A stretch of DNA of 64,000 nt from Thermincola carboxydiphila (GTDB taxonomy: Bacteria; Bacillota; Thermincolia; Thermincolales; UBA2595). Location: NCBI GenBank assembly GCA_016841725.1, contig JAENYP010000003.1, positions 62,001 to 126,000 on the forward strand. The letters are read 5' to 3'. How positions within the stretch are numbered: position 1 is the first letter of the stretch; each line of letters opens with the position of its first letter. Positions 12,026 to 38,562 of this stretch are shown here, in pieces. Made by a program: the position numbers and the translations under genes. A model generated the notes under the pieces. That model saw only the letters and a program-made list of their open reading frames with translations. It was not told the origin of the DNA and ran no database searches.

Positions 12026-12114
12026 TATTGAGATAATGTAACAGATGAAAAAAAGTTTGTGAGGGATAGGTAATGCCTGTCCCTTTTTACTATCATTTCA
12101 GGAGATGTTGTTTC

Positions 12115-12885
12115 ATGGATGGCAGCAGGAATGCCAATGACAAAGAGATGTGTAAGGCAGAGAGAGTACCGGTCCTTGGAGTCGGCATTGATAATGTTGA
12201 CCTGGCTGAGGCTCTGGGGAAAATTGAGGAGTACGTTAAAAATAGGGAACCGGGTTTGGTGGTGACCGCTAACCCGGAGATTGTCATGCTGGCAAGAAAG
12301 GCTCCTGATTTTAAGGCTTGTCTTGATGATGCCCTGCTGGTGACTGCTGATGGGGTAGGGATAGTTATTGCTGCCAGGCTGCTGGGCAGGCCCCTCAAAC
12401 AACGGGTTACCGGGATCGACCTAACTACAGCCTTATTTCAACAGGCAGCTGCTAAGAAGTACAGGTTATATTTTGTGGGGGCAAAACCCGGAATTGCGGA
12501 AAAAGCAGCGGAAAATATCAGCAGGTCTTACCCCGGGATTCAGATTGTCGGGATTCAACACGGCTATTTTACCGATGATCACGAAATCATTGAGGATATT
12601 ATAATCAAGAAGCCGGATATTCTGCTGGCAGCCCTTGGCATGGGCAAACAGGAGAAGTGGATTGCTGAAAGGGTGGAGCCTGCCGGGGTCCCGGTAAGCA
12701 TAGGGGTTGGCGGCAGTTTTGACGTTTTTGCCGGGGAAGCTAAAAGGGCGCCCAAATGGGTACAGGATGCGGGTGTTGAGTGGCTGTACCGGCTGCTCAG
12801 GCAGCCATCCCGCTTTTGGAGGATGCTCCAGCTCCCCAGATTCCTGGCTGCTGTGCTGTTATCGAGGTTCTTTCCTGGTAAATAA
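12115..12885 (+). CDS. WecG/TagA/CpsF family N-acetyl-mannosaminyltransferase
   Basis: Members add ManNAc or a related sugar to undecaprenyl-PP-GlcNAc, an early step of wall teichoic acid or secondary wall polymer synthesis on the cytoplasmic face of the membrane. The 256-residue protein has the family blocks TANPEIVMLARK, DGVGIVIAARLLG, RVTGIDL and LAALGMGKQEKWI, and ends in a short basic, hydrophobic tail. The frame is open from ATG 12073, but GGAG at 12101-12104 lies 10 bases before ATG 12115, and the family similarity starts just after it. It follows the LCP ligase by about 90 bases. The lipid-carrier transferase that would make its substrate is probably the WecA-like enzyme at 19640. Confidence 0.88.
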   Translation: MDGSRNANDKEMCKAERVPVLGVGIDNVDLAEALGKIEEYVKNREPGLVVTANPEIVMLARKAPDFKACLDDALLVTADGVGIVIAARLLGRPLKQRVTGIDLTTALFQQAAAKKYRLYFVGAKPGIAEKAAENISRSYPGIQIVGIQHGYFTDDHEIIEDIIIKKPDILLAALGMGKQEKWIAERVEPAGVPVSIGVGGSFDVFAGEAKRAPKWVQDAGVEWLYRLLRQPSRFWRMLQLPRFLAAVLLSRFFPGK

Positions 12886-12928
12886 TCAAGTTTGCTGCAA
12901 GGCCGGCCGATTATGCATGCAGTCCCCA

Positions 12929-13060
12929 AGTATAATGAGGAAGGGGTAGATGTGTTCCGGAGGGATGTGTCTGACGTCAGCCGGCCCACGAGCCGTGCGA
13001 GTGGCTAGCCGGCTGAGTTGTAGCCATCCCGGAGGAATATATCTACCCCTTCCTTACTTT
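12929..13060 (+). repeat. Structured palindromic repeat, copy A
   Basis: A long imperfect palindrome fills most of the gap between the WecG/TagA gene and the SLH gene. The outer stem pairs 12939-12951 with 13041-13053 (13 perfect pairs). Then TTCC/GGAA (12955-12958 with 13034-13037), a symmetric 3-base internal loop and a 6-bp stem (12962-12967 with 13025-13030) follow. An apical hairpin (12978-12985 with 13008-13015) closes the structure. A second copy lies inverted at 38229-38359. The copies share GTCTGACGTC (12969-12978) and the opposing CTGAGT-G-AGCC strand nearly unchanged, while stem bases change in compensating pairs. No coding capacity or long T run is seen. Confidence 0.75.
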
Positions 13061-13132
13061 ACAGTCAGGGAACGCTGCATTATTGATGGTCATTTCTGTG
13101 TCTCTGACCATTAATTACCAGAAAAGAAACAA

Positions 13133-24965: not shown

Positions 24966-25012
24966 AAAATTACTATTTTGTGTAAATTTAATATAGCAAC
25001 TCTGTCGATAAT

Positions 25013-25085
25013 AGCAAAACCGCCGAAAGACGGTGACGCAAAGCTATGGGTCTAAGGTGTCTGTCACTATGATTGCCAAGCTGCC
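25013..25085 (+). ncRNA. Cyclic di-GMP-I (GEMM-I) riboswitch, first copy
   Basis: The segment has the GEMM-I aptamer layout: GCAAAACC, a first hairpin closed by a GAAA tetraloop (GCCGAAAGACGG), the signature GACGCAAAGC, then GGGTCTAA. A second arm and the closing strand TTGCCAAGCTGC follow. The tetraloop and the receptor-side bases are kept. A terminator follows at 25108-25146, so it probably controls transcription into the gene at 25282 in response to c-di-GMP. Whether ligand turns expression on or off is not clear from inspection. Confidence 0.85.
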
Positions 25086-25107
25086 GAAAAAGAGCCAGGG
25101 TAGTTAT

Positions 25108-25806: not shown

Positions 25807-25833
25807 AACTGAAAATGATACCTTCAGTGAAAA

Positions 25834-25907
25834 AGGCAAAACCGTTGAAAGACGGCGGCGCAAAGCCATGGGTCTAAGGTGGTAACACTATGATCGCCAG
25901 GCTGCCA
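25834..25907 (+). ncRNA. Cyclic di-GMP-I (GEMM-I) riboswitch, second copy
   Basis: The aptamer reads GGCAAAACC, a GAAA-loop hairpin (CGTTGAAAGACGG), the GCGCAAAGCC signature and GGGTCTAAGG. A second arm and CGCCAGGCTGCC close it. It is clearly related to copy one (25013-25085), most conserved in the central CAAAGC-ATGGGTCTAAGGT block. A terminator follows and then the Flp pilin gene, so it probably sets pilin synthesis by c-di-GMP. It begins only 28 bases after the preceding stop codon, and no strong separate promoter was found. Confidence 0.88.
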
Positions 25908-25929
25908 AAGGGGGGAGTGTATAAAAAGC

Positions 25930-36844: not shown

Positions 36845-37028
36845 ACCGGCATTCACCAGTGCTTGGGCAAAATATGACAAAAAGCAGCTTGGATGAAGGA
36901 AATTTGCGTTTTTTAGCGAAATATTATCATGTGTCGACAAACTCCTAAACGGCTTTAGGGAACATAACCGGAGCAAAAGACCAAGGGTTTTTGGGAACAA
37001 ATGCTGATATGTGCAGGGGGAAGGGTTA

Positions 37029-38153
37029 ATGACCGGAGACAGCAGTACCAACAGGAATTTATGGATTATCACGGGTATAGCCAGTGTGCCTTTTGCCATC
37101 CTGGCCTTTAATGACCTCAGCCTGTTAAAAACTCCTCATATTTATTACTTGTTTGCCGTGGCAGTTATTTTTAACGGGTTCCTGGTTCCATTTATATTGT
37201 TTAAGGAGGAACCCAACTGGCTCAAAAAGACTCTTGCGCTTGGTATCAACATGGTGATAGCTGTATTGTGGATTGAGTTTACAGGGGGGATAAAGAGTAT
37301 TTTTTACCCCGGCTTTTTCCTGTTGCCAATCTTTGCGGCAACAATATATTGTGGTTTTCTCGATGCGCTCCTGACCGCATTTTTTGGCAGCGCCCTGACC
37401 CTGTTTTTCAGGTATAATCAGTTCGGGTCAGCCAAAGAAGCTTTTATTGATGCGGCTGTTTTGGTCAATATTATATTCTTTTTTCTCATTGCGGCAATTG
37501 TCGGTTATATCGTTAGGATATTAAGGGAACAGCGGGCCAGTACTCTGAGAATAACTTCAGAACTGGAAACTGCTTATCACCAATTGTCATCTTCCCATGA
37601 GCAGCTCCAAAGTTATACTGAAATCATAGAAAAGATGAATAAAGAAATGGAACAGCTGGCGATTACAGATGAACTCACAATGCTTTACAATTACAGGTAT
37701 TTTCAGATAGCTTTGGACAAGGAACTCAAAAAGAACAAGGCCGGTAGTGTCAGCCTGCTGATGCTGGATGTGGACCACTTCAAACAGTTTAACGAGTTAC
37801 ATGGGCATTTGACCGGAAACAAACTGTTGTCGGAGATAGGCCGGATAATCCGGGAAAATGTCCGGGATGTGGATACGGTTTTCAGGTATGGGGGCGAGGA
37901 GTTTACGGTAATTTTCCCCGAACTTGAGCCGCAGCAGGTTGTGGAAACTGCAGAAAAAATCAGAAGAATTATCGAAAATACCACAATCAAAACGGCGGCC
38001 GGCAAACAGGTAACTTTTACAGTCAGTGCGGGGATATCGCATTATCCCGGTGATTCCAGGAATAAGAGCGAACTAATCAGCCATGCCGACCTGGCCCTGG
38101 CAGAAGCCAAACAGGGTGGGCGGAATCAGGTCAGGATATTTGCCGATGGATAA
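37029..38153 (+). CDS. Membrane diguanylate cyclase (GGDEF)
   Basis: A 374-residue c-di-GMP synthase. Five or six hydrophobic segments occupy residues 10-165, followed by a short coiled coil (SELETAYHQLSSSHEQLQSY) and a GGDEF domain with DELTMLYNYRYFQIALDKEL and RYGGEEFTVIFPELE (GGEEF near 288-292). The RDVD tetrad before TVFRY forms an I-site. No GAF domain is present, unlike the upstream cyclase. GGGGGAAGGG precedes ATG 37029. The 184-base gap from the first cyclase holds a small CCTAAA/TTTAGG hairpin and no clear terminator. Confidence 0.9.
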   Translation: MTGDSSTNRNLWIITGIASVPFAILAFNDLSLLKTPHIYYLFAVAVIFNGFLVPFILFKEEPNWLKKTLALGINMVIAVLWIEFTGGIKSIFYPGFFLLPIFAATIYCGFLDALLTAFFGSALTLFFRYNQFGSAKEAFIDAAVLVNIIFFFLIAAIVGYIVRILREQRASTLRITSELETAYHQLSSSHEQLQSYTEIIEKMNKEMEQLAITDELTMLYNYRYFQIALDKELKKNKAGSVSLLMLDVDHFKQFNELHGHLTGNKLLSEIGRIIRENVRDVDTVFRYGGEEFTVIFPELEPQQVVETAEKIRRIIENTTIKTAAGKQVTFTVSAGISHYPGDSRNKSELISHADLALAEAKQGGRNQVRIFADG

Positions 38154-38196: not shown

Positions 38197-38228
38197 TAAG
38201 TGGAATCAGTTATTTATATTTGGCTATT

Positions 38229-38359
38229 AAGGTATGAAGTGGTAGATAAATTCCTCCAGAACGGCTGCGACTCAGTTTGTTACCGGTTCCCGCTATGCGG
38301 GAACCGACAAACGGACGTCAGACTCGTTCTTCCGGAACATATCTACCACTTCATACTTT
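38229..38359 (-). repeat. Structured palindromic repeat, copy B (inverted relative to copy A)
   Basis: The outer stem pairs 38232-38247 with 38341-38356 (16 perfect pairs). Inside are TTCC/GGAA (38251-38254 with 38334-38337), a 3-base internal loop and a 6-bp stem (38258-38263 with 38325-38330). Further in are TTTGT/ACAAA (38276-38280 with 38307-38311) and an apical 10-bp hairpin (38284-38293 with 38297-38306). Read on the minus strand it matches copy A at 12929-13060 in length, architecture and conserved core. Compared with copy A, three of six pairs in the inner stem have changed in a compensating way. The rest of the 38154-38562 gap is AT-rich and shows no convincing gene. Confidence 0.75.
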
Positions 38360-38562
38360 TACCCAAAATATTTACCCTTCCACTTAAAATAAACCTGCCC
38401 TTGGGAAAACACCTGCCTCTCCCTTACAATAAAACAGATGAGCGATGCCCTGGATAAATAAAATTCCCTCCGGCGGCTGTGCGGGAAATCGGTACAATAC
38501 CTCACCATATTTTAACATAAAATTACAAGGAAAAAACTGTAAAGTGTCGAATTGATATCTTC

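Follow-up and report, generated by a model that had tools for sequence, protein, structure and literature searches.

The window (the whole stretch of DNA that was analysed, 64,000 nucleotides from Thermincola carboxydiphila) carries two copies of a palindromic element, copy A and copy B, in opposite orientations (Table 1). The 3′ end of a glycosyltransferase gene is found 43 bp before copy A, and that of a diguanylate cyclase gene about 73 bp from copy B. An earlier note on this DNA had placed both copies and had described the order of their stems and the bases that change between them; direct reading of the sequence gave the same places, stem order and base changes. The limits given in that note hold for the core; the palindromic element itself extends further out, most clearly in the subfamily named G2 (about 35-40 bp per side; see below). 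For copy A, a possible outer repeat is CTTTCCTGGTAAATAAT at 12870-12886, with its counterpart ATTAATTACCAGAAAAG at about 13111-13127. As single strands, copies A and B have fold z-scores of -10.66 and -11.85, respectively; shuffled sequences that folded as well: 0/200. The orthologue of copy A in the sister species G002 is 98% identical. At the orthologous place of copy B, G002 carries a complete copy of the element that starts with the letters of the relic arm listed in Table 1, and G001 retains part of such a unit; copy B thus sits inside an older copy, of which the relic half-copy beside it is a remnant.

Table 1. Features of the two copies in the window and of the genes next to them. Positions are counted from the first letter of the window.
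Feature	Position	Strand	Basis or remark
WecG/TagA/CpsF glycosyltransferase gene	12073..12885	+	Pfam PF03808, E 3.9e-64
Copy A with possible outer inverted repeat (tentative limits of the full unit)	12870..13127	+	read from the sequence
Copy A, element core, subfamily G1	12929..13061	+	model R1 match, 131.1 bits, E 1.2e-32
Copy A, P1 5′ arm (ends in TTCC)	12936..12958	+	minimum free energy (MFE) pairing with 13034-13056
Copy A, P2 5′ arm GGGATG	12962..12967	+	pairs with 13025-13030; both-side changes in the family
Copy A, core left strand TGTCTGACGTC	12968..12978	+	holds P3 strand GAC 12973-12975 and bulged G 12976
Copy A, P4 5′ arm TCAGCCGGC	12977..12985	+	pairs with 13008-13016
Copy A, apical hairpin P5	12986..13004	+	CCAC 12986-12989 / GTGG 13001-13004
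Copy A, P4 3′ arm GCCGGCTGA	13008..13016	+	as P4 5′ arm
Copy A, core right strand GAGTTGTAGC	13015..13024	+	holds P3 strand GTT 13017-13019
Copy A, P2 3′ arm CATCCC	13025..13030	+	as P2 5′ arm
Copy A, P1 3′ arm (starts with GGAA)	13034..13056	+	MFE pairing; covariation as 5′ arm
GGDEF diguanylate cyclase gene	37011..38153	+	Pfam PF00990, E 6.4e-44
Copy B, element core, subfamily G1 (opposite orientation)	38227..38363	-	model R1 match, 125.9 bits, E 3.2e-31
Relic left arm GGGAGAGGCAGGTGTTTTCCCAAGGGCAGG of an older third copy	~38394..38423	-	alignment with G002

The element had been described as present in two copies; this count was far too low. About 50 full-size copies, together with shortened ones, are found in the Thermincola-genus genome, and a search for further copies, which the earlier note had proposed as a check, found many more in this genome and in all sampled genomes of the order. 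BLAST with copy A gave 46 matches in its own genome; a covariance model built from 33 copies gave 115, a number that includes weaker antisense matches to the same palindromes. The size classes found there with the covariance model are full-size (about 50 copies), 84 nt (about 17) and about 65 nt (a few). Several copies reach 180-206 nt; these carry an additional apical branch of about 53 nt (190-nt form). The architecture of this branch recurs with different letters elsewhere in the family, both in one more copy and in further species (L108, L204, L203), and its pairing thus also seems to be kept. L022:997-1133 and L147:2863-3051 are one orthologous copy, without or with the 53-nt branch, in the two sister species; this copy has thus acquired or lost the branch without a change of site.

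Of 398 genomes sampled from the phylum, those of Thermincolales all carry the family (10/10) and the others do not (0/388). No family match was found in the phages, plasmids and viral contigs searched, and carriage by a phage or a plasmid was therefore dropped. Copies A and B have no match in Rfam, and four other copies have no credible match to it, even at permissive thresholds; the idea of a known RNA family was discarded, no match exceeding the Rfam gathering score. The Rfam search of the window returned only two c-di-GMP-I riboswitches, located elsewhere (25003-25088 and 25825-25909, within 900 bases); a diguanylate cyclase gene lies in the same window. Chance similarity is ruled out by copy number, range and covariation (see below). 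The family is real, widespread in one order, outside Rfam and the collections searched, and not an ordinary one.

From the outside inwards, the fold consists of P1 (21-23 bp, with G-U pairs near TTCC/GGAA), a GGA/GGA loop, P2, an AGTCT/GTAGCC loop, P3 (3 bp), a bulged G, P4, P5 and a variable tip. The core had been described as conserved and unpaired. It is conserved; it is unpaired in part only, as the covarying helix P3 lies inside it (GAC paired with GTT in copy A). P3 (A2 pairs 47/103, 48/102 and 49/101) is paired in 33/33 copies; its variants across copies are G-T/G-C, A-T/T-A and C-G/T-A, with pairs 27 and 28 at E<0.05. The outer pairs of P1 also covary, all four Watson-Crick types being present. 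Among the 33 copies, changes on both sides were found in 28/42 pairs, compared with 14.5 after shuffling; when the partners were shifted by one base, pairing fell from 89% to less than 47%. Covariation above phylogenetic expectation, another check suggested in the earlier note, was assessed on 129 distinct copies from ten genomes with a simplified substitution-shuffling null of our own (FastTree tree, parsimony substitutions redistributed along branches, APC-corrected G statistic, 12 replicates): E<0.05 was reached by 15/41 pairs of the structure versus 0/3280 other column pairs.

The non-Watson-Crick pairs are biased: G-U exceeds A-C both in cells (317 versus 62) and in pairs (25 versus 5; sign test, p 1.6e-4). 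A strandless DNA palindrome should show no such bias; one strand is therefore the folded one. This suggests RNA, the other candidate being one DNA strand. The fold and the strand bias are observed; selection on one strand would be their cause. Promoter scans of the element gave nothing convincing. A putative internal promoter in the left end (CTGACA-18-TATAAA), suspected on inspection, was dropped because a G2 copy gave no promoter in a consensus scan.

Insertion sites are clearest in subfamily G2. Its unit is about 205 bp long including ends of CAGnCTGnTGACAAA type, has inverted termini and contains no gene. On either side lies a direct repeat that forms an entire hairpin and whose sequence is particular to that site. 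Seventeen of these hairpin duplications were measured (15-38 bp; mean best z -6.2), 16/17 of which fold over almost their full length. Empty sites, which the earlier note had proposed to look for in sister strains, were found between sister species: four G2 sites correspond to a single hairpin, without the element, in one sister species. At L010 (29 bp) and L009 (18 bp), the genome of the window has the element and G002 lacks it; at L162 (~38 bp) and L175 (~32 bp), the reverse holds. Each empty site has one hairpin. The target stem-loops have no sequence consensus, and the duplication tracks the length of the hairpin, which indicates that the target is read by its shape. Duplications of the length of the target hairpin thus support shape-guided insertion. 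Some target hairpins resemble intrinsic terminators with a T or A run; at least one, that of L188 (GTGGCAGGTATGTTCCTGCCAC), seems to be a remnant of the family itself. The hairpin duplications were found within the genus only: 45 copies from eight other genomes showed none, and the direct repeats above threshold among them were three long, different-looking ones in G005.

Subfamily G1, which includes copies A and B, gave no clear-cut empty site accompanied by a hairpin duplication, and A and B show no clear duplication. G1 units of several species carry a CCCATAATTAAATGGGG-type hairpin near each end, often with a T run on its inner side. In G1 as in G2, the core thus tends to sit between two hairpins. 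G1 is assumed to move similarly to G2.

The elements adjoin gene 3′ ends in the genome of the window. The neighbouring genes of 74 copies are convergent (24) or co-directional (50), and never divergent (0/74). The lack of copies between divergent genes is consistent with the targeting of terminator-like hairpins. Insertion at such hairpins leaves one hairpin on each side and is therefore likely to be harmless to the neighbours, which would explain the high copy numbers.

The reading that is favoured, and considered fairly probable, is that A and B are members of a family of palindromic, non-autonomous mobile elements that spans Thermincolales, with hairpin-guided insertion in G2 and a fold-constrained core. 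The earlier note had proposed a structured RNA or a hairpin DNA under selection, for example a non-autonomous mobile element; the copies, the covariation and the empty sites support this. An enzyme acting in trans would recognise the terminal repeats (CAGnCTGnTGACAAA type) and, on both strands, would link the element to the feet of a target hairpin that has been extruded; filling of the gaps by repair would then duplicate the whole hairpin, which would account for the equal lengths of duplication and hairpin. The core would stay foldable because the mobilising machinery, or a protein of the host, has to bind its folded strand (RNA, or single-stranded DNA during transfer). Hairpin-guided insertion is proposed because the four site comparisons match the branch of a published model in which the whole stem-loop is duplicated (see below).

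Several observations go against this reading: no enzyme or autonomous partner was found (see below), A and B show no clear hairpin duplication, such duplications were seen in the genus only, some joint changes of the two arms are replacements of the inner hairpin, and the near-stasis of the core in some orthologues exceeds what a purely selfish element needs. Twelve orthologous pairs of copies were compared between two sister species. Six are conserved, with about 1% difference in the core versus about 10% in distant flanks; in the six others, the core is partly or wholly replaced or strongly diverged. The conserved pairs, together with the constant location at gene 3′ ends, the strand-specific G-U excess and a fold kept across the order, would fit a structured RNA used by the host, which spread once and is now kept as 3′-end structures that serve to end transcription, protect mRNA or bind a protein; mobility would be history, as in ERIC, BOX or SPRITE repeats that were co-opted. 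This is possible, though held to be distinctly less probable than the favoured reading. The copies occur in both orientations relative to the neighbouring gene (31 versus 19 of the co-directional cases), their sites are polymorphic between sister species, and targeting of terminator-like hairpins also gives a location at 3′ ends. The low divergence is not counted as proof of host selection, since the six conserved pairs, picked out of twelve, were recognised by their similarity. The orthologue comparison as proof of selection was also dropped because it is confounded by replacement of inner hairpins.

Such replacement is seen in the orthologous pairs L003/L153 and L005/L121: the outer stem is almost unchanged and the inner hairpin, both arms included, is swapped for that of another member. 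The earlier claim that pairing is kept while bases change thus stands, except that some joint changes of the arms are whole inner-hairpin replacements and not stepwise compensation; conversion contributes to these joint changes. Another orthologous copy (L032:1067-1203 and L175:15458-15594, in two sister species) has its element orientation reversed relative to the flanks, as would follow from a flip or a replacement of the palindrome. With the shortened forms, which fit deletions between GGCGGAG repeats, these swaps and this reversal favour a process that acts on DNA only, in which hairpin-templated repair and gene conversion between copies would restore pairing, with no selection on a folded molecule. 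This is judged unlikely: templated repair would not prefer G-U to A-C (317 to 62), the internal loops and the asymmetric core are conserved instead of being corrected to perfect pairing, and the outer pairs covary independently. Conversion thus accounts neither for the G-U bias and the kept internal loops nor for outer pairs that vary independently.

The favoured reading, a non-autonomous mobile family, calls for an enzyme encoded elsewhere. The earlier note had seen no transposase near the copies, and indeed none is adjacent to them. In 1.33 Mb searched, no transposase shares the ends of the element; no longer element with G2 ends was found in these sequences or in the search of the genome of the window, although draft assemblies could miss one. 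Two candidates were rejected: a lone end at G000:C25:335603, considered as an autonomous partner, is a truncated relic that ends in the neighbouring gene, and a DUF772 gene beside a G002 copy belongs to a truncated insertion inside that copy. This insertion, with its DUF772 transposase fragment (L157:13491-14270, G002 C2), lies within the core of the element.

The element might also be a miniature form derived from an insertion sequence of the IS1182 family (IS1272-like). In one branch of the model published for IS1272, joining of the element's ends to an extruded stem-loop at its 5′ feet leads to duplication of the entire stem-loop (PMC5678879). As in IS1272/IS1182, the targets found here are stem-loops of unrelated sequence and varying size, and the element has terminal inverted repeats (PMC5678879). 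IS1272 itself, however, replaces (deletes) its target stem-loop without duplication (PMC5678879), whereas a stem-loop is found here on both sides. Most carriers have no IS1182-type transposase: DDE_Tnp_1_6 (PF13751) has no match in 7/10 carriers, including G000, G001, G002 and G003, and DUF772 (PF05598) is found in 2/10 only, is absent from G000 and, in G002, belongs to the truncated insertion mentioned above. Such a derivation is therefore improbable; the mode is like structure-dependent transposition, and membership of the IS1182 family is not supported. The site comparisons appear to show that the duplication branch of the IS1272 model occurs in nature.

A folded transcript might even be part of the transposition machinery, as a guide, scaffold or template; the element would then be RNA-dependent, with hairpins read by shape and duplicated whole by an enzyme. 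This is regarded as quite improbable. It is very improbable that a Y1 transposase (REP/RAYT-like), or a reverse transcriptase acting on a folded transcript (SINE-like), copies the element: SINEs in general also have variable-length duplications and a folded, RNA-like body, and Y1_Tnp genes are present in 7/10 carriers, but they are absent from carriers G001, G004 and G006, terminal inverted repeats are present and no poly-A tail was seen.

Bacteria often carry small folded repeats; to our knowledge, covariation beyond a phylogenetic null has rarely been shown for them, and their choice of sites is seldom known. The family described here gives both: statistical support for a conserved fold, and duplications equal to the target hairpin whatever its length. 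Group IIC introns are structured RNA elements that insert beside intrinsic terminators and, as far as we know, do not duplicate the hairpin; here, the hairpin is duplicated and no Rfam match was found. Bacterial MITEs resemble the family: they are shorter than 300 bp, non-coding and intergenic, they have terminal inverted repeats, and related genomes show empty sites (PMC10969869); they differ from it in that the duplication has here the length of the target hairpin, the body shows covariation and a strand bias, and no parent IS was identified. The BOX, RUP and SPRITE repeats of Streptococcus pneumoniae are present in tens to more than 100 copies per genome and are folded if transcribed; the middle part of BOX is modular and SPRITE is enriched at gene 3′ ends (PMC3049150). 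By description, the family is like them in copy numbers, fold, modularity (BOX) and 3′-end placement (SPRITE), and unlike them in its hairpin target and in the optional 53-nt branch of its apical region. REP/BIME sequences, associated with RAYT (Y1), are likewise palindromic, intergenic and present in many copies (PMC2817692); the element is much longer, its insertions are accompanied by duplications and Y1_Tnp is not found in every carrier. The family, previously uncatalogued, is best read as a new variant among non-autonomous mobile elements.

Other repeats were noticed in these genomes. A second small folded repeat (GATTAGAAATCGTTATCCAGGAGCTTAGCGCCGC...GCGGCGGTTAGCTATCGGAC) is found in L009 (~870-1020) and in the right flank of L006, and is absent at the orthologous place in G002. 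Further repeats, about 150 and 330 bp in length and often near an element, lie at L162:16804-16954, L027:657-981 and L112:1218-1517; the one of about 150 bp has some 30 matches in the genome of the window. In the window itself, a 45-bp sequence at 38468-38512 (GGTACAATACCTCACCAT...), upstream of a helicase gene, recurs dozens of times in two sister genomes.
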